This document shows, piece by piece, positions 4,725 to 62,243 of a stretch of 64,000 nucleotides of DNA; positions within the stretch are counted from its first letter, which is position 1; each line of letters begins with the position of its first letter. A program made the position numbers and the translations under genes. Source of the DNA: Pseudobdellovibrionaceae bacterium (GTDB lineage: Bacteria; Bdellovibrionota; Bdellovibrionia; Bdellovibrionales; UBA1609); assembly GCA_018663505.1 (NCBI GenBank), contig JABJQG010000041.1, positions 1 to 64,000 on the forward strand, written 5' to 3'. The notes under the pieces are model-generated. The model was not told where the DNA came from, made no database searches, and saw only the letters and a program-made list of their open reading frames with translations.

Positions 4725-5948
4725 GTGGAAAGTAGCCAGCGAAAAAAAGCGCTATTTATTATTTTTATCACTGTGTTTATTGACCTTGTTGGATTTGGCA
4801 TAATAATCCCCCTCTCTCCTTACCTTTCTCGTGAATTTGGGGCGTCGGCACTGCAAATAGGTTTGTTAATGGCCATATATTCATTGATGCAGTTTGTATT
4901 CTCACCTTTTTGGGGCCAACTCAGTGATAGATTCGGTCGTAGACCAATTATTTTGATGAGTGTGTTTGTTGCCGGAGTTTCACATCTTGCCTTTGCTTTT
5001 AGCACTGAGTTTTGGATGTTATTTGTAGCAAGAACCTTTGCTGGAATTGGAGGGGCAAATATCTCTACGGCCATGGCATATATGGCTGACATTAGCTCCA
5101 AAAAGGATCGGTCTAAAACTATGGGGCTCATTGGTGCTGCATTTGGATTAGGTTTTGTGTTCGGTCCCTTTATTGGTGGAATATTTGGTGAGGTTGGGTC
5201 GTCACTGGGCTCAGCGGCTCCCTTTGGTAAGAGCTTTTCTGCGGTAATAGCATCTTCAATTTGTCTATTAAATTTTATTTTTGCTTTTTTCTATTTAAAG
5301 GAATCTAGACAAGTAAATGCTGAGGTCACAGCCATAAAACTGTCAAAACGCATTAAAGTTATGTTTTTTCATCTTAAAAAAGAGACGGTGGGGTCTCTTA
5401 TGTTTTTACTATTTATGACGACCTTTGCCATGGCGCATATGGAGGCCACACTTTTTTTATATGTGAGTGATGTCTTTCATCTTGGCATGAAAGAAGCCAG
5501 TTTTGGTTTTGCATATGTGGGGGTGGTCATGGCATTTACTCAAGGTTATTTAATAAGAAAATGGCTACCAAAATTTGGAGAACGCAGTTTGTTAGTGTGG
5601 GGGGCCCTAATGGCTGGCATTGGATTTTTAATGATAGCTATGGCTCCAAATGTACTGAGCCTTGGGGTGGCAGTTACATTCTTAGCTATAGGAATTGGTT
5701 TGGTAAACCCCTCTTTGCATGGAGGAGTCAGCTTATTGAGCTCATCTGATCTTCAAGGGGAAGTTATGGGGGTTAATCAGAGCCTTTCAGCATTAGCCAG
5801 AATAATTGGCCCTGCCACTGGAGGGTTTATTTATGATCAAGTTAGCTTGAGGTCGCCCTTTTTCATTGCCGCGGGATTTATGGGTTTGGTGTTTTTTTTG
5901 TCCATGAAAATCTACTCCAAAATACCTAACTCGGCAAAAACAGAGTAG
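4725..5948 (+). CDS. MFS drug:H+ antiporter-like exporter (TetA/DHA1 type)
   Basis: The 407-residue inner-membrane protein has about 12 membrane helices. Motif A of the major facilitator superfamily is clear between TM2 and TM3 (GQLSDRFGRRPI). The N-terminal DLVGFGIIIPLSPYLSREFG matches the start of TetA-like DHA1 antiporters, and TM4-TM5 carry GLGFVFGPFIGG, the antiporter motif C. The start is GTG at 4725, 5 nt after AGGAG; an overlapping ATG at 4723 is in another frame. DHA1 members export drugs or metabolites in exchange for protons; the substrate cannot be read from the sequence. No adjacent regulator is seen. Confidence 0.85.
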   Translation: MESSQRKKALFIIFITVFIDLVGFGIIIPLSPYLSREFGASALQIGLLMAIYSLMQFVFSPFWGQLSDRFGRRPIILMSVFVAGVSHLAFAFSTEFWMLFVARTFAGIGGANISTAMAYMADISSKKDRSKTMGLIGAAFGLGFVFGPFIGGIFGEVGSSLGSAAPFGKSFSAVIASSICLLNFIFAFFYLKESRQVNAEVTAIKLSKRIKVMFFHLKKETVGSLMFLLFMTTFAMAHMEATLFLYVSDVFHLGMKEASFGFAYVGVVMAFTQGYLIRKWLPKFGERSLLVWGALMAGIGFLMIAMAPNVLSLGVAVTFLAIGIGLVNPSLHGGVSLLSSSDLQGEVMGVNQSLSALARIIGPATGGFIYDQVSLRSPFFIAAGFMGLVFFLSMKIYSKIPNSAKTE

Positions 5949-6073
5949 AATCTACAAATTTACTTTCCAGAATTTACAAATCGGGGTATTGTTGGTATTC
6001 AAAATTTCACTGCAACTATATCTTGAAAACAAAGTAATTATAGTATGTTATGAGTTATTCACAAAGGATAAGT

Positions 6074-8764
6074 ATGAGCCAAGATTCTACATTTTCAGAC
6101 CGTTATGCCCCCCAGGACATTGAAACAAAGCATTATAAAAACTGGGAAGAAAGTGGCTACTTTAAGGCTGAAGATCAGTCTACAAAACCACCATACTGTA
6201 TTATTTTACCACCGCCAAATGTTACGGGTGTACTGCATTTGGGGCATGCACTTGATTTTACTTTGCAAGATGTACTTATTCGCTGGAAAAGAATGTCAGG
6301 CTTTAATGCTCTTTGGATGCCAGGGGCGGATCATGCTGGTATTGCCACACAAAGTGTTGTGGAGAAAGAGCTACGAAAGGAAGGCGTAACTCGTCATGAA
6401 CTTGGTCGGGAAAAATTTGTAGAAAAAATATGGGACTGGAAACACGCACATGGAGAAAGAATTTTAGAGCAGATGAAATGCATGGGATTCTCCTGCGATT
6501 GGGATAGACAAACCTTTACTTTGGATGAGGGTGTTTCTAAAGCTGTTCGAAAAGTGTTTACTTCACTGTACAAGAAGGGCGCAATTTATAGAGGGAACAG
6601 ATTGATTAACTGGAGCCCTAAATTAGAGTCAGCTCTTTCTGATCTTGAAGTTAATCATATTGAAACCAAGGGTAACCTTTGGCACATAAAATATCCATTA
6701 GCTGATGGTAGTGACTTCTTAATTGTGGCCACCACCAGACCAGAAACACTGCTAGGAGATACGGCTGTTTGTGTACATCCAAATGATGAAAGATATGAAT
6801 CCTATATTGGAAAAGAAGTTTCCTTACCATTAACTGATCGTAAAATTAAAATAATTGCAGATGAATATGTAGACAAAGATTTTGGATCCGGTGTGGTCAA
6901 AATTACGCCGGCTCATGACTTTAACGATTATGAAATTGGAAAGCGTCATGAGTTAGAGTTTATTAATTTACTAAATAAAAATGGTACATTGAATGAAAAC
7001 GCTGGAGAAAACTATAAAGATCTTTCGGCTATTGACGCGCGAAAAAAAGTTGTAGCTGATCTGGAAGAGCTTGGTCTTTTAGAAAAAGTAGAGCCTCATG
7101 CCCATTCTGTTGGGCATTGTGAGCGATCAGGCTGTGTTGTAGAACCATTATTGTCTGACCAGTGGTTTGTGGATGTATCTAATATTTCTGTGCCAGCAAA
7201 AAGAGTTGTGGAAAGTGGAACAATATCCTTTGAACCGGAGAGTTGGACCAAAACTTACTTACATTGGATGAATAACCTTCAAGATTGGTGCATATCTAGA
7301 CAACTGTGGTGGGGGCACAGGATCCCAGCATGGTATTGCAAGGACTGCTCCCACGTAACGGTGATAGAAGAGAGTCCATCTAAATGTGAGGGCTGTAAAA
7401 GCGAAAATATTTATCAAGAAGAAGATGTATTAGATACTTGGTTTAGTTCAGCCCTCTGGCCTTTTAGTACGTTGGGCTGGCCTGAAGAAACTGAAAGTTT
7501 AAAAACTTTTTATCCGACAAATGTGTTGATTACTGGTCATGATATAATATTTTTCTGGGTTGCTCGTATGATAATGATGGGCTTAGAGTTTCAAGAAGAT
7601 GTTCCATTTAGAAAAGTATACCTGCATGGCTTGCTGCGAGATGATCAAGGTAGAAAACTTTCTAAATCCCTAAAAAATGCTCCTGATCCACTAGAAATTG
7701 TAAAGGAGTATGGAGCAGATGCCTTGAGAGCGACTTTAATGTCGCAAGTTTCTTCTGGGAGAGATTTGAAATTCTCTATGCAGAAATTAGAGACAAATAG
7801 AAATTTTTTAAATAAAATTTGGAATGCCACTCGATTTGCATTAGGTGCACTTACTGACTTTGATGCTCCTGTTGAGGGTGATCAAGCACTACCTCAAAAA
7901 TCGGACTTATCCGATGCAGATCAATGGATAATTCATAAATTAAAGGTTTGCGAAAAACAGGTTGATGAAAACTTACGTAATTATAAATTTTCTGAGGCGT
8001 TTGGTGCCATTTATGCTTTCGTTTGGCACGAACTCTGTGATTGGTATTTAGAACTATCTAAACCTATTTTATACGGCGAGCCTTCATCCGAGCGAACAGC
8101 TACACAGCTGGTATTAACTCAAGTTCTTAATAGAGCTCTTCGCCTATTGCATCCATTTGCCCCTTTTATTACTGAGGAGCTTTATCAAAAGTTACCCATT
8201 AAAAATGAATCCATAGTTGTTGATTCGTATCCAAATATTAAATCTGATAAAGTATGGTTGGAAGTAGGGTCGGAAGAGATTGCTTTAGAAATGGATTTAG
8301 TTATTTCTGTGATTTCTGCCATAAGGAATATTCGTGGTGAAAACAGAATAAAGCCTTCTGAAAAAATTAAAGTGATGCTTTCTCCAGGTGACGACAAGGC
8401 ACAAAAAATATTAGGTGTTAACAAGGTTTCTATAATGACAATTGCTGGGCTTAGCGAATGTATTATTAGTGAAGTTGAAGATATGTCCAAGTGTGCTGTG
8501 ACTCCAGTGAGGTTTGAGTCTTTGGAAGTGGATGTGGTTATTCCCTTAGAGGGGCTTGTGGATTTTGAAATCGAAATTACCAGGATAAATAAAAATATCG
8601 AAAAATTAGAAAAAGAAGAACTCAGTTTAAGCAAAAGGATGAATAATGAAAATTTTCTGAAAAATGCCCCAGAAGAAGTGGTTGATGATGGAAAACTGCA
8701 GCTGGTAAAGTTTAAATCATTAATTGAAAGCTTAAGAGCTAGTTTAAAACGGCTTCAAAGCTAG
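6074..8764 (+). CDS. valS: Valine--tRNA ligase
   Basis: This class I aminoacyl-tRNA synthetase charges tRNA-Val. The HIGH motif appears as HLGH within PPNVTGVLHLGHAL and the KMSKS motif as KLSKS. The CP1 editing domain is present (TTRPETLLGDTAV), as is the Val-type anticodon-binding region and a C-terminal coiled coil rich in Glu and Lys. The full length of about 896 residues is normal. I chose ATG 6074 because AAGGA ends 5 nt before it. The upstream ATG at 6050 has no ribosome site and would add eight residues (MSYSQRIS). A weak promoter (TTGAAA 6023, TATGTT 6044) would start transcription after 6050, which also favours 6074. A two-hairpin repeat follows the stop. Confidence 0.96.
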   Translation: MSQDSTFSDRYAPQDIETKHYKNWEESGYFKAEDQSTKPPYCIILPPPNVTGVLHLGHALDFTLQDVLIRWKRMSGFNALWMPGADHAGIATQSVVEKELRKEGVTRHELGREKFVEKIWDWKHAHGERILEQMKCMGFSCDWDRQTFTLDEGVSKAVRKVFTSLYKKGAIYRGNRLINWSPKLESALSDLEVNHIETKGNLWHIKYPLADGSDFLIVATTRPETLLGDTAVCVHPNDERYESYIGKEVSLPLTDRKIKIIADEYVDKDFGSGVVKITPAHDFNDYEIGKRHELEFINLLNKNGTLNENAGENYKDLSAIDARKKVVADLEELGLLEKVEPHAHSVGHCERSGCVVEPLLSDQWFVDVSNISVPAKRVVESGTISFEPESWTKTYLHWMNNLQDWCISRQLWWGHRIPAWYCKDCSHVTVIEESPSKCEGCKSENIYQEEDVLDTWFSSALWPFSTLGWPEETESLKTFYPTNVLITGHDIIFFWVARMIMMGLEFQEDVPFRKVYLHGLLRDDQGRKLSKSLKNAPDPLEIVKEYGADALRATLMSQVSSGRDLKFSMQKLETNRNFLNKIWNATRFALGALTDFDAPVEGDQALPQKSDLSDADQWIIHKLKVCEKQVDENLRNYKFSEAFGAIYAFVWHELCDWYLELSKPILYGEPSSERTATQLVLTQVLNRALRLLHPFAPFITEELYQKLPIKNESIVVDSYPNIKSDKVWLEVGSEEIALEMDLVISVISAIRNIRGENRIKPSEKIKVMLSPGDDKAQKILGVNKVSIMTIAGLSECIISEVEDMSKCAVTPVRFESLEVDVVIPLEGLVDFEIEITRINKNIEKLEKEELSLSKRMNNENFLKNAPEEVVDDGKLQLVKFKSLIESLRASLKRLQS

Positions 8765-44333: not shown

Positions 44334-47300
44334 TTATGGGGAAGCAATACTCGCAGGGATTGTTAATTGGCCGTTTGCTGAGTCGTTGGAATTTTCTTCC
44401 CAACATGTAACTTTGCCGCTACTTAGAAGGGCACAGGCATGAAATGCTCCTGTACCCACATCAATTACTTTACCTGTAATCGACGCTATTGGGTTATCAG
44501 TATTAATATAACCCCAGCATTTTGCTTTTCCATCTGTGGTGACGCCACAGGCGCTATCATGCTCTGCAGAAACTTTGCGAGCAGTTGTTAAGTTAATATT
44601 TGTTGGGTTTAGGTTGCCAGTACCTAAAGCATAATCGAACCCCCAGCAATGAACTTTATTTGTCAGGGAATCTATGGCGCAGGTGAAGTCAAAGCCGGCA
44701 CTTGCGGTTAAAGCTTCTCCGGGCCCATCTACATTGGCCGGAATATTGGACAATTGTCCCTTGTCATCAGGCCCCCAGTTTATAATTTTTCCGTCGGCTG
44801 ATAGCGCGGCTCCATGATAGTACCCTGCATAAAGTTCACGGGTAGAGCCAGCTAAAGTTAAGTTATAAGTATTTAATACCCCAGCAGTGGCTAAATCACT
44901 AAGTTGAGTAAAAGCATTATTTCCTCGGCAACCGATGTCTCCTGTAACTCCTAGGCTACACATAAAACTTAAACCTCCGTCTCCGGTTTTTGTGTAATTG
45001 GCGTCAGAATATGGAACTGAAAGGGTGGTTTGACTATTAACAGGATCTCCCCAGCATTCCTGGATTCCGGAGCTTCTGATGGCACAGGTTGCATTGGCTC
45101 CAATATATAGGTCAACGGTAGAGCCGGCAAGATTCAGACCTGTAGGAATAGTAGTTTTTCCATTGGCGGCGTCCCCCCAGCAGTTAATGGAGCCGTTAGC
45201 AAGTAATGTACAACTATGGTAAGCGCCAACAACCAATTTTATCACTGCATTTACAGAGCCACCCAAACTAATATAGGGCATGTCTTTTGGAAACTCATTA
45301 TCTCCAATAGATAAGTGGGGACCTAACCCCATTTCACCAAACAGTCCGTCTCCCCCCCAGCACTTTACATGTCCATTAACAAGAATGGCGCAGCTTTGGT
45401 TGCCTCCAGCATAAATACTTCGTACTCTCTCTCCTCCGAGATCTACATCAGCTGTTGGTGATGCTGTATCTCCTACAGTGGTGGTGTGTCCTAAACCAAG
45501 TTGTCCCACATTATTGAGCCCCCAACACCTTGCATTGCCAGTGGCAAGTAATGCACAACTATGAAAACGACCGGTTGCAATCTGTACCGCGGGTTCTCCA
45601 GAAAGCACATAGCCTTTAGTTTCTGGGTCTAAAACGTCGGAAGTATCTCCGTAACCAAGACGACCAGCGGTGCCTACACCCCAACAGCTGATATTCCCAT
45701 CAGTTAAAAGAGCACAGGTGTGATTAAAGTTTGCTGATATTTGCTTAATTGGGTTAGTTAGAGTGACCAGAGGAGCGGACGCGGTATTATGAATACCTGC
45801 GCTGGCTCCGTAGGTGTTGTTGAGTGCATTTCCTAATTGACCAGAAAATCCGTAGCCCCAACACTTTGCTTTTCCGGAGGAGAGCAGAACGCAAGTATGT
45901 GAGTCACCTGCTTCAATTTGAATGGGAACACCTGTAACTGCTCCAAGGGGAATGGGGCCATTAAAGCTAGGTGTTTCGCCAGCACCGTCACCAAGATTTG
46001 TAACGTTGTTATAACCAAGACGACCATTGCTCCCGTTACCCCAACAGCGAGAGTCTCCTCCCACTAAAATGGCACAAGTATGATTTTGCCCAGCAGTAAT
46101 GGAGAGGGCTTTTTGCCCTAGGTTAATCATACCTGCACCAAGGGGGTCCTCATTGTCCCCTATGGGTAATATGTTCCCGTGTCCGAGTTCTCCGTCAGAA
46201 TTTCCTCCCCAACAAAAAACATCACCGCTAGCCATTAAGGCACAGGTGTGATCTCTTCCAGCAACAATCTCAGTGGCAAAACCAGAAGGTCCTAAGTTAA
46301 CAATGACACCTTCATCAGGATAGGAAGTGAGTCCCTGATCGTCTACATTTCCTTGCCCCAGTCGACCACCGAGGCCACTGCCCCAGCAAAGAACTTTACC
46401 TTCAGCATTTAAAGCACAAATATGCTCATCTCCCACGGCCATTGATTTAGTTGAGCCGATGGGTGCTGAAGGAGGATGTATAGTGGTTATGGACCATGAG
46501 GAGGAGTAGGTGTTTCCTACATCAAGTATAACGGCAGAGCTTTGAGAATAGCTAGTTGCTGTAGTAAAGCGAATTTGCACATAATCATTGTTGTCCACAA
46601 CATCTATAGCTAAAGCATTTGTCCAGCCATGCTTTACAGAGGATTCGCAGCTACTTTCACTGGTACCATCTGTACAAATACGATACTCAGGTGATGAGCC
46701 TGTTCCCGCTGAAATGATGATGCTAATTTCCACCGCAGTATTTATTCCTGTAATTTGTAGTGGGTAGGAAGTAACAACAGAGTTTCTTCGGTACACACTG
46801 TGGAGTGGAGCAGGAAAGGCAATATTGTCTGGAGTGATATCCAATACATTTACGGCAAATTCATCGCCTATAATGCCGCTGTTGCCATCATCAAATCTCA
46901 CATTAATATTACAGAGCCCTGCAAACCCTGCGGCGGGCTGGAATGACACGGCACCATTAGTTGCATTAATACTAAAGCCACCAGGTTCTGCATGAGCTGA
47001 ACAGTCTAAACTAGAGGCTGCACCGAAGCTATAAGTACCAAAACCTTCTTCATCTGTTTGGACATCAGCGTCAGTTTTAATTATAGCAAAATTAGCGTCT
47101 TGGTAAATATCTATATTAACAAGGGAACTTGAAAGTACTGGAGCAACGTTAACAATAGTTACGGTTAGAGTACTACTAGTAGAGATAATTCCATCACTAG
47201 CATCCATTGCTAATATACAATCGCCAACATTGTCATCGTTAGGAGTTGCGAAAAATGCTCCAGTGGCGGAGTCTATTGTATTAATCCATGCACAAGTATT

Positions 47301-49430
47301 TGCAGCAGCAATGGACCATGTGTGGGTATCACCGGAATCAGGATCTACAAGGATTGGAGAGCATACAAACGAAACGTCTTGATGGTTTGGTGAGGCGGCA
47401 CAATTAAGGCTGAGAATTACTGGAGCATCGTTAACAGGATTTACTGTAATTGCAAACTCACTAGCGATTGTGTTTGATGTTGCATTGCCATCATCAAACA
47501 CCACTTTGATATTACAGGTACCGGAATAGTTGGTAGCTGGTTGGAAAGTCACAGCTCCTGAAGAGCTGTCTATAGTTAGCCCCAAAGTATGATCAGAGCA
47601 TTTGGGCGCTGTTGTGGAAGCATGATCAAAACTATAAACTCCAAATCCTTCTTCGCTGGCCTGTACCATTGCATCGGTTCTTATAATTGAAGAGGCGGCA
47701 TCTTCCAGAATAGATGCAGCATCAGCAATAATTAAGCTAGGAGTTACATTGCTGACGGTTATATTTAATGATGTCACTAAAGAATCATTTGTTCCGTCAT
47801 TCACTTTATAAGCTAAAATACATGAACCCACGTCATCATCATTAGGCACCCCACTCAAAACTCCACTTGTTGCATTTATATTAGCCCAGGCACATGTATT
47901 ATTTGTTACATCCAGGCCCCAAACATAAGGGCCTGGGCCATCAGCATCGGTGAAGGTCGGAGAGCATGTATAAGCGGCATCTTGATTTAAAGAAATTGCG
48001 CAGGTCTGTGAAATAACAGGAGCAATATTCGTGGCAACATTTACAGTAATGGCAAACTCACTAGCCACTGTATTTGACGAAGCATTGCCATCATTAAATA
48101 CCACTTTAATATTACAGGTTCCAGTATAATTGGCAGCTGGTTGATAAGTAACTGCCCCGGTGGTGTTGTCTAGTGTTAAATCCAAAGTATTATCAGAACA
48201 CTTAGGTGCCGTGGTGGTTGCATGATCAAAACTATAAATCCCAAAGCCCTCTTCGTCGGCTTCTACATCAGCATCAACTCTTATAATTGAAGCAGCGGCT
48301 CCTTGTAATATCGCTGCAGCATCGGTAATAGTTAAGGTTGGAGCAATATTATTAATTGTAAGGGTTGTGGAACTTATAATGGAGTTATTAGGGAATGTGT
48401 CAGTAACCAAAAAAGCTAAGATGCAATCTCCCACGTCATCATCCCCAGGGCTTCCTGAAATGTTTCCAGTATTAGGATCAATGGAAAGCCAGTTACAAGT
48501 ATTGGTAGTACTGTCAAAACTCCAACTTAGAGTTTCACTTTCAGCATCAGTAGCTGTGTTTACACAAGAGTAGACCGTGTTTTGTACTCCAGAAGTTGAA
48601 CAAGCAGCAGAGGTAATGGTTGGAGCTGCATTTGTTGAAGTTGTCACCGTCCATGATCCCCCTGCTGTGGCACCCACGGTTAACGTAGCGCTAAAGGGAC
48701 TGGCGTTGGAAGCCGAACTGGTTAATTGTATTTGCACATAGTTATTATTTATAACATTCCCAGATCCTGTCATGGAGGTCCAATTGTGTAGTACATTAGA
48801 GCAAGAACTATCGTTGCAGACTCGATATTCGGGGGCCCCATCACCAGAAATGCTAATGTCAGAAGCTATATCTATTCCCGTGATTTGTATAATGTCAGAT
48901 TCTACAAGGGTGGATGTAGAGGCTATGGAGTTATTTGTAAAATTAAAGGCATCTGGCATGTTATCAATACCAGGCTGAACTCTTTGGATACTCAAAATAA
49001 CAGGAGAGGAAGGGTCATTTTTTATATAAGAATATATTTTAACTTCTACACTATTACCGTGGATATCCTGAAGCCCAAGCTCAGGATAACTTGAGCTTGT
49101 GTAACGAAAATTAAAAGAGAAAGAGCCTTCACTTTCACAACTAAGATTAGCGGAACTATCTATTTGTTTAAGATCAACTGGACTGGAGTTGGCCACTGAT
49201 ACTTTAATACTATCAGTTTTTTTATTACAAGTTCCAGAAATGAGAATATCACTTCCCCAAAGTGTATTATCAATTTCCATTTGTGTTTGACTAAGAGAAG
49301 GGGGCTGCGATGAAAATAAAGATGTAATATCAGGGATTTGATCAGTACACCCTAAATTAGATAACATAAAGAGCAAGGTGAATACTTTGCTCATGTCATT
49401 GATATTAAATACATTTTTAACGTTCCACAT
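44334..49430 (-). CDS. Giant RCC1-repeat lipoprotein with cadherin/Ig-like repeats
   Basis: The 1698-residue protein has a lipoprotein signal (FTLLFMLSNLGC; an in-frame ATG at 49394 gives the more usual length). Residues about 260-905 hold alternating Ig/cadherin-like modules: short He_PIG-type units (ITSAACSTSG, then SGSPGDDDVGDCILAF) and three roughly 105-residue units each containing DEEGFG or SEEGFG and DDGN or NDGN. Paired modules with PEYRVCND and PEYRICTD flank that region. From about residue 990 to the end come 14 RCC1-type repeats, most with H-x-C-A-L...G...C-W-G, enough for two seven-bladed propellers. Regularly spaced Cys may give disulfides. It is likely a surface adhesion or recognition protein; function unknown. 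Confidence 0.85.
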   Translation of the reverse strand: MWNVKNVFNINDMSKVFTLLFMLSNLGCTDQIPDITSLFSSQPPSLSQTQMEIDNTLWGSDILISGTCNKKTDSIKVSVANSSPVDLKQIDSSANLSCESEGSFSFNFRYTSSSYPELGLQDIHGNSVEVKIYSYIKNDPSSPVILSIQRVQPGIDNMPDAFNFTNNSIASTSTLVESDIIQITGIDIASDISISGDGAPEYRVCNDSSCSNVLHNWTSMTGSGNVINNNYVQIQLTSSASNASPFSATLTVGATAGGSWTVTTSTNAAPTITSAACSTSGVQNTVYSCVNTATDAESETLSWSFDSTTNTCNWLSIDPNTGNISGSPGDDDVGDCILAFLVTDTFPNNSIISSTTLTINNIAPTLTITDAAAILQGAAASIIRVDADVEADEEGFGIYSFDHATTTAPKCSDNTLDLTLDNTTGAVTYQPAANYTGTCNIKVVFNDGNASSNTVASEFAITVNVATNIAPVISQTCAISLNQDAAYTCSPTFTDADGPGPYVWGLDVTNNTCAWANINATSGVLSGVPNDDDVGSCILAYKVNDGTNDSLVTSLNITVSNVTPSLIIADAASILEDAASSIIRTDAMVQASEEGFGVYSFDHASTTAPKCSDHTLGLTIDSSSGAVTFQPATNYSGTCNIKVVFDDGNATSNTIASEFAITVNPVNDAPVILSLNCAASPNHQDVSFVCSPILVDPDSGDTHTWSIAAANTCAWINTIDSATGAFFATPNDDNVGDCILAMDASDGIISTSSTLTVTIVNVAPVLSSSLVNIDIYQDANFAIIKTDADVQTDEEGFGTYSFGAASSLDCSAHAEPGGFSINATNGAVSFQPAAGFAGLCNINVRFDDGNSGIIGDEFAVNVLDITPDNIAFPAPLHSVYRRNSVVTSYPLQITGINTAVEISIIISAGTGSSPEYRICTDGTSESSCESSVKHGWTNALAIDVVDNNDYVQIRFTTATSYSQSSAVILDVGNTYSSSWSITTIHPPSAPIGSTKSMAVGDEHICALNAEGKVLCWGSGLGGRLGQGNVDDQGLTSYPDEGVIVNLGPSGFATEIVAGRDHTCALMASGDVFCWGGNSDGELGHGNILPIGDNEDPLGAGMINLGQKALSITAGQNHTCAILVGGDSRCWGNGSNGRLGYNNVTNLGDGAGETPSFNGPIPLGAVTGVPIQIEAGDSHTCVLLSSGKAKCWGYGFSGQLGNALNNTYGASAGIHNTASAPLVTLTNPIKQISANFNHTCALLTDGNISCWGVGTAGRLGYGDTSDVLDPETKGYVLSGEPAVQIATGRFHSCALLATGNARCWGLNNVGQLGLGHTTTVGDTASPTADVDLGGERVRSIYAGGNQSCAILVNGHVKCWGGDGLFGEMGLGPHLSIGDNEFPKDMPYISLGGSVNAVIKLVVGAYHSCTLLANGSINCWGDAANGKTTIPTGLNLAGSTVDLYIGANATCAIRSSGIQECWGDPVNSQTTLSVPYSDANYTKTGDGGLSFMCSLGVTGDIGCRGNNAFTQLSDLATAGVLNTYNLTLAGSTRELYAGYYHGAALSADGKIINWGPDDKGQLSNIPANVDGPGEALTASAGFDFTCAIDSLTNKVHCWGFDYALGTGNLNPTNINLTTARKVSAEHDSACGVTTDGKAKCWGYINTDNPIASITGKVIDVGTGAFHACALLSSGKVTCWEENSNDSANGQLTIPASIASP

Positions 49431-51160: not shown

Positions 51161-51216
51161 TATAATGCGTCATGGCGTTGAGTCATGTTGCGTCAAAATT
51201 GAGCAGCAGGGATAAA
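51161..51216 (+). promoter_or_regulatory. Candidate promoters of the mraZ cluster
   Basis: Two candidates exist. One is a consensus TATAAT at 51161-51166 without a good -35. The other is TTGCGT (51188-51193) and GATAAA (51211-51216) at 17-bp spacing, which would begin transcription inside the MraZ box array at 51219. The second fits repression by MraZ better. Confidence 0.35.
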
Positions 51217-51218
51217 AG

Positions 51219-51244
51219 TGGAAATAAATGGAAAAAAGTGGGAA
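51219..51244 (+). promoter_or_regulatory. MraZ operator: three TGG(A/G)A boxes at 10-bp period
   Basis: TGGAA, TGGAA and TGGGA begin at 51219, 51229 and 51239, exactly 10 bp apart. Known MraZ regulators bind arrays of TGGGA-type boxes separated by 5 nt upstream of their own gene, so this is the expected autoregulatory site. The array ends about 90 bp before the mraZ ATG. Confidence 0.65.
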
Positions 51245-51250
51245 AATATT

Positions 51251-52708: not shown

Positions 52709-53008
52709 ATGAATTTAAACAAACAAAAAGCTTTACCATTTATTAGTATTCTAGTGGTGATTGTTAGTCTCTTTGTCATTGTTTTTATTAAAATGGAGGT
52801 AAGGAAGCAAGGCTATATGGTTTATAAGCTTTCAAAAAATTTAAAAAAAATAACAGATAAAAATCGTTTAGCTTCTATGAAACTGGCCAAAATTATTAGA
52901 CCAGAAAAGGTAAGGGGAGTGGTTCTTACCCAACTAGATAGTCAGTATGCTCCTTATGGACAAATCATTCAAATGACCGAAAAAGGTGTGGCATTGCCAA
53001 CTCGATAA
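52709..53008 (+). CDS. ftsL: FtsL-like division protein
   Basis: The 99-residue protein has a short cytoplasmic end, one membrane helix (FISILVVIVSLFVIVFIKM) and a periplasmic heptad-like segment (YKLSKNLKKITDKNRLASMKL, quoted here in part: LSKNLKKITDKNR). Size, topology and its place between rsmH and ftsI match FtsL, which bridges the divisome with FtsB and FtsQ. Sequence conservation in this family is low, so position is the main evidence. GGAGGGGG precedes the ATG. Confidence 0.8.
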   Translation: MNLNKQKALPFISILVVIVSLFVIVFIKMEVRKQGYMVYKLSKNLKKITDKNRLASMKLAKIIRPEKVRGVVLTQLDSQYAPYGQIIQMTEKGVALPTR

Positions 53009-53009
53009 T

Positions 53010-54968
53010 ATGAAAGGTCGAATTGTATTTATATTTGTATCAATAGTTTTTTTATGGGGAGGCCTTGTTTTTAGAAGTGCTCAACTTCAAGTTTTTCCAG
53101 ATCAAAAATTTATCAAACTTAAAAAACATCAATATAAAAAAATGATCACAGTAAATCCTCGAAGAGGAGATATCTACGATAGAAATCATAAAGAATTGGC
53201 CACAACTATTCCCGCCTATTCATTATTTGTAGACCCTTATATTTTAAATAATAAAAAAAATAACTATAAAAGAATTGCGCGGAAGTTGGCTCGTATCACT
53301 AGAGTTTCTCAGAGAAAAATTCTAAAAAAACTAAAGGCAAAAAATTCAAAAGGAAAACTGAAGCGGTTTGTTTGGATCAAGAGAAGAATCAGTGAAGACT
53401 TAAAACATAAAATCAATAAATTGAAATTACGCGGTTTAGGTTTTATTGAGGAACCTTTAAGAGTGTACCCAAATGACCACTTGTTGTCTCAAGTCATAGG
53501 TTATGTAGGTAAATCTGGAAAAGGTTTAGAAGGTGTTGAGCTTAAGTTTAATAATCACCTTAGCGGTGACCCCATAAAAGTGGCTTTGCAAAAAGACGCT
53601 AGGGGAAGGCCTTTAGTGCTTGATGGCGCTGTTTTCTCTAAAAGACCAGCGGGGAAAGACTTAGAACTCACTGTGGATTCGGAAATTCAGTTCTACTTAG
53701 AAAAAGAATTAGAAAAATCTGTAATAAAATTTGAAGCAGATTCGGCACAGGGAATAGTCCTTGATGCTCAGACCAGCGAAATTATTGCTATGGCAAATGT
53801 TCCGCGCTTCAATAATAATAAACCAGATCATTATTTACCATCTTACCGTAGGAACCGAGTAGTCACCGATGCTTTAGAACCTGGCAGTACAATGAAATCT
53901 GTGGTTATTGCTTCTGCCCTGCAATCTGGAATTATTAAGCCAAATACAAAGATAAATTGTGAGAATGGGAAGCTTAAGGTTGGGCGTAGAACCATATCAG
54001 AAGCTGATGATACTCATAATTTTAAGCAGCTCACTGTTAATGAGGTTCTTTCTTTATCTTCCAATGTAGGTACTTCAAAAATTGCATTTAAAATGGGACA
54101 GAAATCTCTTTTGAATTCTTTAAAGCGATTTGGTTTTGGCAAAAAAACAGGTGTAGATCTTGTTGGTGAATCCAAAGGTTTGTTATCAGAAAAAAAGTGG
54201 AGCCAGCACCAATTGGCTTCAATTTCCTTTGGTCATGGGGTGAGTGCAACAATGTTGCAAATGGCCAATGCATATGCCGCTATTGCAAACGGAGGTATTC
54301 TCAACCAACCGACTATAATTAAAAAAGACTATGTCGGTTCAAAAAGGCCAGCAGGAAAAAGAATTATTTCAGAATCGGTCTCAAAGACCATGAGAATTAT
54401 GTTAAATTTTGCTACAGCCAAGGGTAGCACAGGTTACAATGCAAGAGTGGCCGGCTACCAAGTGGCAGGAAAAACAGGAACTGCACAAAAAGTCGATTTT
54501 ATAAAAGGTGGTTACGAGCGAGGTAAATATATTGCTGGATTTGCAGGTTTTATACCAGCTCATGATCCGAAATACGTAGTTTATGTCACAGTAGATAATC
54601 CACAAAAATCTTATTATGGATCCACTGTGGCAGCTCCAATTTTTTCTAAAGTTGCTGGTTTTGCCATAAGAAAACAAGGCTTGGCACCTATGCTTTTATC
54701 GGAAAAGCATTTTACTAAAATGCCAAAATTTTTTAATGAATCCCCATTTGGTAAAAGCAAAAATGTGGAGTTAAAAAAGGGTGAGGTTCTAGGGGAAGAC
54801 GAAAGCCTACTTACTCTTAAAGGTTTAAGTTTAAGAGCGGCTATACGTCAGTTGGATGCATATGATTTAAAATATAAAGTCATTGGCCAAGGTAGAGTGA
54901 AAAAAATTATACCTAGCAATCTAGATTTAGCTCGGTCAAAAAAAAGAGTAAAGATATATTTAGAATAA
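53010..54968 (+). CDS. ftsI: Septal peptidoglycan transpeptidase FtsI (PBP3) with C-terminal PASTA domain
   Basis: This class B penicillin-binding protein cross-links septal peptidoglycan. One N-terminal membrane helix (IVFIFVSIVFLWGGLVF) and a PBP-dimer domain with PRRGDIYDRN are followed by the transpeptidase domain: active-site Ser in EPGSTMKSV, SSN in LSSNVGTS and KTG in AGKTGTAQK. A PASTA domain ends the protein (LLTLKGLSLRAAIRQLDAY), as in many non-enterobacterial homologues. I choose ATG 53010, two bases after the ftsL stop; an ATG at 52986 lies inside ftsL. Confidence 0.93.
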   Translation: MKGRIVFIFVSIVFLWGGLVFRSAQLQVFPDQKFIKLKKHQYKKMITVNPRRGDIYDRNHKELATTIPAYSLFVDPYILNNKKNNYKRIARKLARITRVSQRKILKKLKAKNSKGKLKRFVWIKRRISEDLKHKINKLKLRGLGFIEEPLRVYPNDHLLSQVIGYVGKSGKGLEGVELKFNNHLSGDPIKVALQKDARGRPLVLDGAVFSKRPAGKDLELTVDSEIQFYLEKELEKSVIKFEADSAQGIVLDAQTSEIIAMANVPRFNNNKPDHYLPSYRRNRVVTDALEPGSTMKSVVIASALQSGIIKPNTKINCENGKLKVGRRTISEADDTHNFKQLTVNEVLSLSSNVGTSKIAFKMGQKSLLNSLKRFGFGKKTGVDLVGESKGLLSEKKWSQHQLASISFGHGVSATMLQMANAYAAIANGGILNQPTIIKKDYVGSKRPAGKRIISESVSKTMRIMLNFATAKGSTGYNARVAGYQVAGKTGTAQKVDFIKGGYERGKYIAGFAGFIPAHDPKYVVYVTVDNPQKSYYGSTVAAPIFSKVAGFAIRKQGLAPMLLSEKHFTKMPKFFNESPFGKSKNVELKKGEVLGEDESLLTLKGLSLRAAIRQLDAYDLKYKVIGQGRVKKIIPSNLDLARSKKRVKIYLE

Positions 54969-54982
54969 AAGGGGAATAAATT

Positions 54983-56305
54983 ATGGAAAGTACAATAAGC
55001 AGTGCTTTATTTTGGGGAGCACTTAGTGCTGTTTCTTTGCCAATAGGGGCTTTACTTGGGATATGGTTAAAACCAAAACAAAAAATAAATTCTGCTTTTA
55101 TGGCTTTTGGCGCTGGAGCGCTTTTGTTTGCCTTAACTATAGAATTGTTCGGTCATGTTCCGCACCATGTTGAAGGTCATGGGTATACAGCCCTGTATGT
55201 TTCTCTTGGTGGGGCACTGCTTGGTGGACTCATTTTTGATTTCTTAAATACCATCTTAAATGACAAAGGGGCGTTTTTAAGAAAAATTTCCCAAGCTAAA
55301 AATTATGTAGCTGCTCTCAAGTATAATAGAACAAAAGATTTACTGAAAGAGCTCTCAAGCGTTCAAGTGCTCCAGAGATTAAGCCCTAAACACATGGCTG
55401 AGCTTGTCCATACTGTAAAAAAAGAAAGTTTTGAGGCAGGAGAAGTAGTTTTTAAACAGGGGGACGCGGCTCAGGATATGTATTTTGTGATTTCTGGCGA
55501 AGTGGAAATCATAGTACATAATGATGAAAACCAAGAAAAAAAGATAGCTACTTTAGGTAAAAATGAAACCTTTGGTGAACTTGGGATTTTAATGAATGAG
55601 CCCAGGACTGCCGATGCCAAAGCGCTCACCGTCACTCGAGTGTATAAAGTATCAAAAAGTAACTTTATGGATATTGCAAAAAAAGATAAAAATCTTGCTG
55701 CAGACTTAGAGCAACTTGCTAATGACAGAGTAAATGATTTAAATGTTAAAACTAGTAAAAATTCTGATCATTGGCAAAAAGAAGTCTTAGACGAAATAAG
55801 CAGTAGTGAATTTAGTGTTACCGAAGAGGAGATTCATCAAGAAGGAGAGGCTGCCTCTGGAGGATCCGCAGCAATGGCAATTTGGATGGGAATATTTATT
55901 GATGGAATACCAGAGTCACTCATCATAGGTATGATGGCGCTCAGCCCTGGTGGGATGTCCATGGCTTTTATTGCAGGTGTATTTTTGGCGAATTTACCTG
56001 AGGCCATGTCTAGCTCAGTGAGTATGCAAAAAAGTGGAATGTCTGTTAAAAAAATCTTAGTGATGTGGGGCTCTTTAACAGTACTTACAGCTATAGGTGC
56101 AGGGTTAGGGGCGACAATATTCCCTGCCAACCCAGAAGGGAATATTTTTTATTTCATTTTAGGAATTGAGGGCCTGGCCGCAGGAGCGATGTTGACAATG
56201 ATAGCAGAAACCATGTTGCCAGAAGCTTTTGAACAAGGAGGCCGAATTATTGGCTTTGCAACATTAGTTGGTTTTCTAACCGCACTTATAGTAAAAGTTT
56301 TATGA
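54983..56305 (+). CDS. ZIP-like membrane protein with internal cyclic-nucleotide-binding domain
   Basis: Residues 1-95 contain three membrane helices (for example ALLGIWLKP, INSAFMAFGAGALLF). Residues about 125-245 form a cyclic-nucleotide-binding domain with the phosphate-binding cassette FGELGILMNEPRTADA (Glu199, Arg208). From about 293 onward five helices resemble the C-terminal half of ZIP transporters: IDGIPESLIIG (306-316), FLANLPEAMSSS and AETMLPEAFEQGG (408-420). The His ligands of classical ZIP motifs (HNxPEG, HExPHE) are absent, so metal transport is uncertain. It lies between ftsI and murE with gaps of 14 and 1 bp and is probably part of that operon. Direct nucleotide gating of a transporter is inference. 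Confidence 0.8.
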   Translation: MESTISSALFWGALSAVSLPIGALLGIWLKPKQKINSAFMAFGAGALLFALTIELFGHVPHHVEGHGYTALYVSLGGALLGGLIFDFLNTILNDKGAFLRKISQAKNYVAALKYNRTKDLLKELSSVQVLQRLSPKHMAELVHTVKKESFEAGEVVFKQGDAAQDMYFVISGEVEIIVHNDENQEKKIATLGKNETFGELGILMNEPRTADAKALTVTRVYKVSKSNFMDIAKKDKNLAADLEQLANDRVNDLNVKTSKNSDHWQKEVLDEISSSEFSVTEEEIHQEGEAASGGSAAMAIWMGIFIDGIPESLIIGMMALSPGGMSMAFIAGVFLANLPEAMSSSVSMQKSGMSVKKILVMWGSLTVLTAIGAGLGATIFPANPEGNIFYFILGIEGLAAGAMLTMIAETMLPEAFEQGGRIIGFATLVGFLTALIVKVL

Positions 56306-56306
56306 T

Positions 56307-57791
56307 ATGAAATTAGCTCAACTTTTTTCCATGTACTCAGAGCTTCAGTGGGGCGATTCTGCACTTGCTGAAGTCACTGGAGTTACTAGTGACACGCGAC
56401 AAGTGGAGGAAGGCAGTGTGTTTGTTGCAGTTAAAGGGCAAAGCTTTGATGGCCATGATGCTTTAAGTGAAGTTATTAAAAAAGGAGCTGTAGCTCTTGT
56501 TGTCCATAAAGACACACCTCATATTCCAGAATTTAATGGTGTTTTAGTGAAATCATTCAACACAAGAAATGATTTAGTTAAGATTCTTGGTAAATTTTAT
56601 GGTTACCCCACAAGGGATGTATTTTCAGTAGCGGTCACTGGGACTAATGGAAAAACAAGTATTGCGTATATGTTGGAGTGCATACTCCAACACTTTGGTT
56701 GGAGCACAGGAATTTTAGGAACAGTTGATCACCACATCCAAGAACATGTGTGGCAATCCCAACTCACCACACCTTCGCCTGAGGTTTTACAAAAACGTCT
56801 CAGTGAAATGCATGCATTAAAAGCCAGAGCATTTGTTTTTGAAGTCTCTAGTCATGCCATAGATCAGCAAAGAGCTAGGGGTTTAGATTTAGACTGTGCG
56901 GTATTTACAAATTTATCCCGTGATCATTTGGACTATCATGAAAATATGGAAAGTTATTTTCAGGCAAAACAAAAACTTTTTACCGAAATGTTACAGGAGT
57001 CTAACAAATCCACGAAATTTGCTGTGATTAATATAGATGATGAGTACGGAAGAAAAATTGAAGTTTCAAATCAGTCAAAGCGCATCTCGTATGGGCAGGG
57101 GCCAGGTGATTTTCAGTTTGAGGTTACCTACCAAGGCTTTGATGGTTCTACTTTTTTATTAAGAACTAAACGAGGTGAATTTAAGGTCCACATCCCTATT
57201 CCAGGATTATTTTCTGTGTATAATGCTACTGCGGCATTGGCAGTGGCATATGCTGCGGGGATCTCCATGGACCTTTGTATTGAGGCATTAAGTCAATTTA
57301 AGGGCATCCCAGGAAGAGTGCAGCCCGTTGAAAATAATAAAAACGCATATATTTTTGTGGATTACGCTCATACAGATGACGCCTTAAATTCTGTTTTAAA
57401 AACTTTGTCAAAAATTAAAAAAGCGGTGGGAAAAGGGCGATTGATTACCATTTTTGGCTGTGGGGGTGACAGAGACAAGGGAAAGCGTCCACTGATGATG
57501 GCTGCAGCAATGAAGTATTCAGACTATGTCATTGTGACTTCTGATAATCCTAGGTCTGAAGACCCTCATGGAATTATTGATGAAATTCTTAGTCAAACAG
57601 ATGCCTCAGAAAAAGGGAAGAAATATTTTGTGGAGGCCGATCGCAAATCAGCCCTAAGGACAGCTTTGAATTTAATCAAAGAGGGTGATATATTATTGAT
57701 TGCAGGTAAGGGGCATGAGTCCACGCAGACTATTGGCAACAAGGTTTTGGATTTTAATGATGCTCAGATAATTAAGGAGCTTTTGGTTTGA
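56307..57791 (+). CDS. murE: UDP-MurNAc-L-Ala-D-Glu:meso-diaminopimelate ligase
   Basis: The 494-residue Mur ligase adds the third residue to the UDP-MurNAc peptide. The P-loop is VTGTNGKTSIAYML; TTPSPEVLQKRLSEM and SSHAIDQQRARG are MurE signatures. DNPRSEDP in the C-terminal domain marks meso-diaminopimelate specificity (Lys enzymes have a different motif). It starts one base after the ZIP-like gene and overlaps murF by 4 nt. Confidence 0.95.
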   Translation: MKLAQLFSMYSELQWGDSALAEVTGVTSDTRQVEEGSVFVAVKGQSFDGHDALSEVIKKGAVALVVHKDTPHIPEFNGVLVKSFNTRNDLVKILGKFYGYPTRDVFSVAVTGTNGKTSIAYMLECILQHFGWSTGILGTVDHHIQEHVWQSQLTTPSPEVLQKRLSEMHALKARAFVFEVSSHAIDQQRARGLDLDCAVFTNLSRDHLDYHENMESYFQAKQKLFTEMLQESNKSTKFAVINIDDEYGRKIEVSNQSKRISYGQGPGDFQFEVTYQGFDGSTFLLRTKRGEFKVHIPIPGLFSVYNATAALAVAYAAGISMDLCIEALSQFKGIPGRVQPVENNKNAYIFVDYAHTDDALNSVLKTLSKIKKAVGKGRLITIFGCGGDRDKGKRPLMMAAAMKYSDYVIVTSDNPRSEDPHGIIDEILSQTDASEKGKKYFVEADRKSALRTALNLIKEGDILLIAGKGHESTQTIGNKVLDFNDAQIIKELLV

Positions 57792-60446: not shown

Positions 60447-62243
60447 ATGTCAGATTACGATAATAAACCAAATGATTCAGAATCCGCTGTAACTACCGAG
60501 GCCAGTGATAATCCATCAACACAAGAAGCAGCCAGCCAGGAGTCTCCAGCTTCCGAAGCTTCACAGAGCTTCAATGCTCAAAATACAGAGGAACAGAGTC
60601 CCGTACAACAGACCGCTCCTGTTCAAGAAGTGGAGTCTCAAAATATGAATGCCACAGAAGCCGTAAGTGAAGTGGCACCTGTACAAGAGGCCCCTGAGGC
60701 TGTTGCACAGTCTACCGAAACTACGCATCAGCCCACTAATGATGTGTCCGCTCAACCAGTTTCTTCAGAGGCAGCTTCTCAAAGCACTGTTTCTGAAGAC
60801 GCATCAGCTAATACAGCGCCAAACCCTGCTCAAGTTGCTACTCCAGTTGTGGAAGTAAAGTCTCGTCGTAAAGAAGTTAAAGGTAAAAAAGTTATGGTTG
60901 TAGGGCTAGGTCGTACAGGTGTAGCCGTTGCTAAATTTTTAGTTACCCAAGAAGCTTTAGTCACAGTGAGTGATCATAAATCCAAGGCGGAACTGGTTAA
61001 CTACTTGGAGCTGATGGAAGATATTGATGTGAGTTTTGATTTAGGTGGTCATACTCCTAAATTATTTCTTCAACAAGATTTATTGATTTTATCGCCAGGT
61101 ATATCGCCTTATTTAAAAATATTTGATTATGCAAGAAGCCGTGGTGTTGAAGTCACCGGCGAATTTGAATTTGCAGCGGGCTATATTGACGAACCTGTGA
61201 TTGCTGTTACCGGTACTAATGGAAAAAGTTCCGTATGTAAAATGATCCACCAAATGTTGAATGTTGCTGGTGTATCTAATTGGTTAGGTGGTAACTATGG
61301 TGCTCCTTTGAGTGAGTACCTTATGTTGGAAAAGAAAACAGATATAGTTATTGCTGAAGTTTCTAGTTTTCAATTAGAGCATGCTGTTAACTTTAACCCA
61401 AAAAACATCATTTTTACAAACTTAGCAGAGAACCATTTAGATCGTTATAAGACTATGGAAGAGTATGTAAATGCCAAAAGAAAAGTTTTCTTAAACACAA
61501 ACCAAAAAACAACAAGTATACTAAATGCCGATGATAACGCTGTTGTGGAATTAGCCAGAGACCCATCAGTACAGCGTGGGCGCATATTCTACTTCTCTAG
61601 AAAGGACGCACTTGAACCACAAATTATGAATATTGGTGGGGTTGTTCATGTTAAGGATCAACTGAAGCTAAGAAGAGGACCCGAAATTGATTATTTCAGT
61701 ACAAAAAATTGTAAGCTAAAGGGAAGTCATGCTTATGAAAACCTTATGGCTGCGTCTTTAGCCGCATTAGAAAATGGAGCGACTAATGAATCTGTACAAA
61801 AAGTTATTGATGGGTACTCAGGATTAGACCATAGATTAGAGTATGTAAGACGAGTGGGCGGAGTAGAATTTTATAATGACTCTAAAGCTACTAACGTTCA
61901 TGCTGTAATGCGAGCTCTTGATGCCTTTGACGAAAATGTAATTCTAATTATGGGTGGAAAAGATACCAGTCTTAATTATGAACCTCTAAAGGATAGAATT
62001 CGTAGAAAAGTAAAGAACCTTATTCTTACTGGTGAATCTAAAGAGCGTATTAACCGTCATATTGGCGATTATAGCGAAACTTTTTTGATTGGAACATTTG
62101 AAGAAGCTGTACATATGGCTTATCAAAAATCAAGAATCGGTGACCTTATATTAATGTCTCCAGGTTGTTCTAGCTTTGATGTTTTTGACTCTTATGCAGA
62201 ACGCGGTAATTACTTTAAAGAAATGGTGAATAAGTTTAACTAA
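60447..62243 (+). CDS. murD: UDP-MurNAc-L-alanine--D-glutamate ligase with long disordered N-terminal extension
   Basis: Residues from about 142 on are MurD: VMVVGLGRTGVAVAKFL, the ATP loop VTGTNGKSSVCKMI, SSFQLEHAVNF and FYNDSKATNVHA. The first roughly 140 residues are unlike MurD: a stretch rich in Gln, Glu, Ala, Ser, Thr and Pro (for example QEAASQESPASEASQ), with no Cys or Trp and almost no Lys before residue 138. The ATG at 60447 has AAAGGA 6-7 nt upstream and no good internal start precedes the MurD core, so the extension appears to be translated. It may tether MurD to partner proteins; that is inference. Confidence 0.92.
   Translation: MSDYDNKPNDSESAVTTEASDNPSTQEAASQESPASEASQSFNAQNTEEQSPVQQTAPVQEVESQNMNATEAVSEVAPVQEAPEAVAQSTETTHQPTNDVSAQPVSSEAASQSTVSEDASANTAPNPAQVATPVVEVKSRRKEVKGKKVMVVGLGRTGVAVAKFLVTQEALVTVSDHKSKAELVNYLELMEDIDVSFDLGGHTPKLFLQQDLLILSPGISPYLKIFDYARSRGVEVTGEFEFAAGYIDEPVIAVTGTNGKSSVCKMIHQMLNVAGVSNWLGGNYGAPLSEYLMLEKKTDIVIAEVSSFQLEHAVNFNPKNIIFTNLAENHLDRYKTMEEYVNAKRKVFLNTNQKTTSILNADDNAVVELARDPSVQRGRIFYFSRKDALEPQIMNIGGVVHVKDQLKLRRGPEIDYFSTKNCKLKGSHAYENLMAASLAALENGATNESVQKVIDGYSGLDHRLEYVRRVGGVEFYNDSKATNVHAVMRALDAFDENVILIMGGKDTSLNYEPLKDRIRRKVKNLILTGESKERINRHIGDYSETFLIGTFEEAVHMAYQKSRIGDLILMSPGCSSFDVFDSYAERGNYFKEMVNKFN

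Follow-up and report, generated by a model that had tools for sequence, protein, structure and literature searches.

A ZIP-fold protein with an internal cyclic-nucleotide-binding domain encoded between ftsI and murE of a Pseudobdellovibrionaceae bacterium

The fusion gene and its setting in the window

In the window, i.e., the whole stretch of 64,000 nucleotides analyzed in this work, a forward-strand gene (54983..56305; ATG start, 440 aa) encodes a ZIP-fold protein with an internal cNMP-binding domain, as assigned from its open reading frame, Pfam and a structural model. Directly upstream lies ftsI (52986..54968, forward strand; Pfam Transpeptidase, E 1.9e-78), and directly downstream follows murE (56307..57791, forward strand; Pfam Mur_ligase_M, E 3e-49). 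The intergenic gaps amount to 14 nt after the end of ftsI at 54968 and 1 nt before the start of murE at 56307. These gene calls agree with the placement and the gaps that a first-pass annotation of the DNA had given. Pfam assigned the window neighbors of the fusion gene to a transpeptidase PBP and to Mur ligases. A promoter and terminator scan found promoter-like sites at the locus to be no commoner than in shuffled sequences.

The same architecture occurs at 48–58% identity in other genera and phyla. Identity of this level along the whole protein rules out a chance open reading frame or a misjoined frame, and judged by its sequences the fusion protein is a real, rare and coherent family. The genome of the window holds one full-length copy, and five further matches are limited to the cNMP part and its edges. 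The same genome also encodes a 441-aa soluble cNMP-like protein (L004 577-1902) on contig G000:C54, where genes for a membrane-bound class III cyclase (L170 1381-3228) and a chemoreceptor-like protein lie some 2 kb away.

Several other features of the window were recorded. Just upstream of mraZ, TGGA/TGGGA motifs are repeated about 10 nt apart (51215-51250), which we take to resemble MraZ operator repeats; the start codon of mraZ itself is probably ATG 51335 and not TTG 51314. Ahead of the MurD domain, the 598-aa product of the window murD (60447-62243) has an additional N-terminal stretch of some 135 residues in which S, E, A, P and Q abound; the murD products of two other carriers of the fusion gene have 462 aa (G006) and 463 aa (G023). 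On the reverse strand, 44334-49430 encode a probably secreted 1698-aa protein with, by eye, many RCC1-like repeats (CALL..G...CWG) near its C-terminus.

Fold, sensor domain and transport site

The first-pass annotation had described a ZIP-like protein with a cNMP domain in the loop between its N- and C-terminal helix bundles, and had named structure prediction as a check. Pfam Zip (PF02535) matched the window protein in two stretches with 56.5 bits against a cut-off of 35.1 (E 3.5e-15). An AlphaFold2 model was built from nine sequences, the chimeric-looking L013 among them; its mean pLDDT was 74 and its pTM 0.49, so that the position of one domain relative to the other is unreliable. In VIA-align, entries of BbZIP from Bordetella bronchiseptica occupied rows 1–8 with Z 19.4–21.0 and covered both transmembrane halves, so that a ZIP fold rather than a non-ZIP fold came out. 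The best match was 8ght_A (Z 21.0, 3.4 A, 237 residues, model residues 1–437), and the rows after BbZIP were cNMP domains with Z ~17. The ZIP likeness came from VIA-align; ZIP proteins were absent from the best 50 PDB matches of Foldseek. By sequence, a HMMER profile of TM4–8 reached BbZIP with E values of 5.8e-7 to 9e-7; a TM1–3 profile run against PDB sequences retrieved no ZIP and a single unrelated weak match.

By model and profile, the fold of the window protein is thus that of a ZIP, with the cNMP domain placed between TM3 and TM4. TM1–TM3 span residues 1–94 (54983..55264, forward strand), as seen from the model helices and from the VIA match to BbZIP over residues 1–437. The cNMP domain with its C-helix, residues 125–255 (55355..55747, forward strand), occupies the place of the His-bearing IL2 loop of the ZIP family, which is missing; Pfam and the model agree on this position in the TM3–TM4 loop. 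TM4–TM8 follow as residues 293–440 (55859..56302, forward strand). Among eight aligned members, the window's protein included and L014 and L125 left out, mean pairwise identity was 62% for TM1–3 and 70% for TM4–8, versus 39% for the cNMP domain. The TM cores are hence the best-conserved part, which fits a working membrane machine.

The sensor domain matched Pfam cNMP_binding (PF00027) over residues 148–234 with 87.1 bits against a cut-off of 27.5 (E 7.9e-25), and the Z of ~17 was obtained to cGMP- and cAMP-bound domains. The closest PDB sequence matches of the window protein were cNMP domains of PKG and PKA type. Its phosphate-binding cassette, FGE...PRTADA (residues 197–212; 55571..55618, forward strand), had been called intact-looking, and our alignment bears this out: F197, G198, E199, R208, A210 and A212 are invariant in all eight members. 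FGE and R were also found by eye in L014 and L125, the two members outside the alignment. Despite a mean pairwise identity of 39% across the domain, these pocket residues stay fixed. In cNMP domains, the Glu and Arg of the cassette (here E199 and R208) contact the ligand. The residue that follows the cassette Arg is T, S or N among members. According to the available part of PMC6717892, cAMP-specific domains carry Ala at this position, and Bdellovibrio Bd1971, with Ser there, is activated by cAMP and cGMP alike. The ligand of the window protein may hence be cAMP or cGMP. Class III cyclases (PF00211) were present in 15 of 15 genomes tested, with three in the genome of the window; this set comprised the four Bdellovibrionota carriers, six non-carrier relatives and five carriers outside that phylum. 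As all six non-carriers have cyclases too, their presence says little beyond the existence of a messenger source.

The transport site of the window protein departs from that of BbZIP (PDB 5tsa, 8ght), although the 8-TM fold is shared (Z 21.0). Where ZIP proteins have HNxPEG on TM4 (BbZIP H177–G182), the window protein has DGIPES (residues 307–312; 55901..55918, forward strand), and the stretch aligned to BbZIP D208–G212 on TM5 reads NLPEA (residues 337–341; 55991..56005, forward strand). In the HMMER alignment, H177 corresponds to D307, N178 to G308 and E181 to E311 on TM4, while Q207 corresponds to A336, D208 to N337 and E211 to E340 on TM5; further on, E240 is replaced by T369, H275 by E409 and E276 by T410. 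These mapped positions, among them D307, E311, N337 and E340, are invariant in all eight members, except for 308, which is G in five and A in three and, by eye, S in the partial Nitrospinae copy L125 outside the alignment. The bridging metal carboxylates E181 and E211 are therefore kept in all eight, as E311 and E340, but the transport-site imidazoles are lost, and the first-pass annotation was right that the usual ZIP His motifs on TM4 and TM5 are gone. Since only P and E of the HNxPEG-type metal motif remain on TM4 and TM5, we refer to a ZIP-fold or ZIP-like protein and not to a ZIP zinc transporter. Several replacements speak against transport: Q207 to A, E240 to T and N178 to G/A are exchanges for non-chelating or weaker residues, and the exit residue E276 has become T. 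According to the available part of PMC9278863, BbZIP is impaired by E276A and D144A, but tolerates H177A. Loss of the His thus need not abolish transport.

The altered site also occurs outside the fusion. Two order-mates encode ZIP-only proteins (L126 and L127) that have DGIPES and NxPEG as well, so the site does not depend on the fusion. In TM4–8, identity to the window protein is 39% for L126 and 35% for L127, and both carry the same TM4/TM5 motifs, but differ from it in having no sensor domain. We regard L126 3597-4355 and L127 5481-5978 as a sensor-less, His-free ZIP-like subgroup; L126 scored 21.1 bits, below the Pfam Zip cut-off. A phmmer search of PDB sequences with a ZIP-only relative gave unrelated weak matches only. 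A Deinococcus plasmid protein annotated as a ZIP family zinc transporter (WP_249395302.1) matched residues 305–437 of the window protein at 40.6% and likewise has no sensor domain. We know of no tested function for sensor-less ZIP-like proteins with DGIPES/NxPEG.

Distribution, gene neighborhood and history

The ZIP-cNMP architecture was found in ten genomes of five phyla and is patchy throughout. Carriers made up 4 of 58 genomes of relatives, the genome of the window included, and 4 of 339 genomes in a sample of the phylum Bdellovibrionota; among the genomes searched, 22 of the 26 genera of the family lack a full-length copy. At E 1e-20, 9 of 140 genomes of the order gave a match, of which four were full length, two ZIP-only and three limited to the cNMP part. 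A pattern scan of GTDB genomes returned nine loci, four in the known Bdellovibrionota carriers and five elsewhere, namely in two Gammaproteobacteria, a Nitrospinae, a Hydrogenedentota and a Pyrinomonadaceae MAG. Searches around these non-Bdellovibrionota carriers found the gene in 2/77, 1/297, 2/53 and 1/68 genomes, with the seed genome counted in each, and added a second carrier genome of the Nitrospinae group (G388). Eight of the nine carriers besides the genome of the window are metagenome assemblies by their titles. A plasmid search gave no record spanning 80% of the query, and neither a single-protein scan of genome contigs nor a scan of viral contigs provided a useful lead. In the literature searched, largely at the level of titles and abstract openings, no account of a ZIP-cNMP fusion turned up. 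As an architecture, the fusion newly combines two families that are each known, ZIP and cNMP-binding.

In all four Bdellovibrionota carriers, which belong to four genera, the fusion gene directly follows ftsI, with gaps of 14 (window), 9, 10 and 20 nt. In G023 (L011), ftsI, the fusion gene and murE share one contig, with 9 nt to ftsI and 81 nt to murE. G006 (L012) has the same order on one contig, with a gap of 10 nt and then a murE that overlaps the fusion gene by 4 nt. The intact G018 contig L014 carries mraZ, mraW, ftsL and ftsI, named by eye from their likeness to the window's genes, and then, after 20 nt, the fusion gene, inside which the contig ends. The order ftsI–fusion gene–murE on a single contig is therefore documented in three genomes, the window's included. 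Another G018 contig, L013 (G018:C236), shares about 1.9 kb at 100% DNA identity, from position 1 to about 1990, with L012 (G006:C7) from 1560, although the two MAGs belong to different genera, and this identity breaks off sharply close to the 3' end of the fusion gene. From this pattern L013 is probably a chimeric contig. We left it out of the fusion and FtsI trees; in the counts of relatives, order and phylum this contig, also labeled L009, goes under G018, whose carrier status stands on L014.

A one-off insertion in one genome is ruled out by the occurrence after ftsI in four genera, and the comparison of gene order that the first-pass annotation had proposed thus showed the gene in three genera besides that of the window. 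A universal dcw gene is ruled out as well, by its rarity in the 58 relatives and in the phylum sample and by its absence from many intact ftsI–murE junctions. murE was found in 55 of 58 relatives, the genome of the window included. Among 50 order-mates whose upstream stretch was read, none had the fusion gene before murE: ftsI lay within 390 bp of murE in 28 and adjoined it without the gene, lay farther away in 5 and was absent from the stretch in 17, and in the last two groups varied genes precede murE. One further order-mate, with murE at a contig edge, falls outside these 50. In G033, a congener of G023, ftsI and murE are 12 bp apart without the fusion gene.

The six homologues outside the phylum have no adjoining cell-wall genes in the stretches read, and often lie beside other transporters. 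In the gammaproteobacterial loci L104 and L105, the fusion gene adjoins a SulP-STAS-CNBD gene and a GGDEF-EAL gene. At about 5550-7780 of both loci, the gene for the SulP transporter, which has STAS and its own cNMP domain at the C-terminus, points away from the fusion gene; two cNMP-sensing transporters are thus adjoining in both MAGs. In the Nitrospinae locus L106, the fusion gene follows a DUF1538 membrane gene and two P-II-like genes (5456-7958), and is itself directly followed by a single-domain cNMP gene. The L106 setting, together with SulP elsewhere, might hint at anion or inorganic-carbon transport. In L110 the fusion gene comes after DUF4212 and a sodium:solute symporter gene, and in L111 and L125 it lies among other genes. 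Pfam was run on the neighbors of L104, L106 and L110; the GGDEF-EAL and L105 genes were named by eye.

On an RpoB tree of 39 rows, the four Bdellovibrionota carriers were scattered, which takes four changes. Nor are their FtsI proteins monophyletic: a carrier clade was rejected (p 0.02), and G023 grouped with the non-carrier G033 (SH-aLRT 99). A single joint transfer of the ftsI–fusion gene–murE block among carriers is not supported, as the FtsI of carriers follows that of non-carrier relatives and RpoB scatters the carriers. In the fusion tree, the window's copy grouped with the gammaproteobacterial copies (82/88) and the partial G018 copy with Nitrospinae (96/94). Placing the dcw copies in one clade was rejected with the partial G018 row (p 0.0115), but allowed without it (p 0.141). 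As the rejection hangs on this partial row, we refrain from concluding on repeated insertion. Groupings in agreement with the species tree were not rejected (p 0.133 and 0.434). Transfer of the fusion gene between phyla is likely, and an old residence at the ftsI–murE slot, followed by many losses and by export to other phyla, is possible.

Probable cyclic-nucleotide control of a ZIP-fold transporter

Taken together, the two domains, the ZIP fold, the point of insertion, the pocket residues, the carboxylates and the altered site lead us to think that the protein is probably a ZIP-fold elevator transporter of a divalent cation, controlled by cAMP or cGMP binding to the cytosolic domain that replaces IL2. 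According to the available parts of the sources, the static scaffold of BbZIP comprises TM2, 3, 7 and 8 and its moving transport domain TM1, 4, 5 and 6 (PMC9278863), and the His of the TM3–TM4 loop IL2 form a regulatory M3 metal site with D144 and E276, at which metal stabilizes the inward-facing state (PMC11429975). As TM3 belongs to the scaffold and TM4 to the transport domain, a domain suspended between them could exert a pull on TM4. When the cNMP domain binds its ligand, its C-helix and linker would move; this motion could shift TM4, and the shift would favor one side of the alternating cycle. The second messenger might then stand in for the metal-binding His by which the ordinary ZIP loop holds back release. 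Nucleotide control of the elevator is our inference from the TM3/TM4 anatomy. From the residues present, the His-free, carboxylate-rich site (D307, E311 and E340, with N337) would, at a guess, suit Mn2+, Mg2+ or Fe2+ rather than Zn2+.

Sensor domains are joined to membrane transport domains in other systems, too. SthK and HCN, whose cNMP domains match that of the window protein structurally, have the sensor placed after the membrane part. The same holds for the SulP-STAS-CNBD protein of the gammaproteobacterial loci, whereas in the window protein the sensor is inserted between the helices of the scaffold and those of the transport domain. CNNM magnesium transport proteins resemble the window protein as metal transport proteins with a cytosolic cNMP fold, but their membrane domain is unrelated to ZIP. 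A review of transporter control mentions MFS-CNBD fusions, and a term search of its available part did not find the word ZIP (PMC10710835).

With CNNM as precedent, a cNMP fold may persist after ligand binding is lost, since the C-terminal CNBH domain of CNNM binds no nucleotide, as stated in the available part of PMC6429129. The window protein might then be a transporter whose cNMP-like domain serves dimer assembly or partner binding, and a match to CNBH_CNNM2_C was indeed seen, although weak and below the cut-off (E 0.13). We consider this rather improbable, as the pocket residues of the window protein are intact, with FGE, R208 and the flanking Ala invariant in 8/8 members while the rest of the domain drifts, and the model matches ligand-bound domains with Z ~17. 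The converse, in which the ZIP part is no transporter but a membrane anchor or cation sensor and the cNMP domain a second input or output, would account for the loss of His from both metal motifs and for the replacement of several BbZIP ligands. It appears unlikely in view of the strong conservation of E311, E340 and the TM cores, of the tolerance of BbZIP toward H177A, again from the available part of PMC9278863, and of ZIP-only proteins that have the same altered site without any sensor domain.

The first-pass annotation had further suggested a link to peptidoglycan synthesis or division. Of this, the co-location in the gene cluster stands, within one bacterial family; a functional tie, read from gene position, is weak. 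A dedicated cell-wall or division role, with the cyclic nucleotide controlling cation supply to Mur enzymes or to the divisome, draws on the post-ftsI slot shared by four genera with short gaps (14, 9, 10 and 20 nt), a slot occupied although carriers scatter on the RpoB tree and their FtsI form no clade. Such a role is nevertheless quite improbable, given that 22 of 26 family genera lack a full-length copy in the genomes searched, that ftsI adjoins murE without the gene in 28 of 50 order-mates and that the six homologues outside the phylum do not lie beside cell-wall genes in the stretches read.

Returning to the nucleotide-controlled cation transporter, the fusion gene of the four Bdellovibrionota carriers probably shares a transcript with cell-wall genes, and its product would thus be made when walls are built. 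We may speculate, with considerable doubt, that a cyclic-nucleotide sensor took the place of the metal-sensing ZIP loop and that, in one lineage, the cation supply gated in this way became part of the wall-synthesis operon, with the cations for MraY and the Mur enzymes tracking the level of the messenger. For the ZIP family, the natural swap of a regulatory metal-binding loop for a nucleotide sensor offers a handle on how this loop controls the elevator, and the His-free transport site is a test of what determines ion choice in ZIP folds. If the proposed control is true, cAMP or cGMP would act directly on a bacterial metal transporter and not via transcription.
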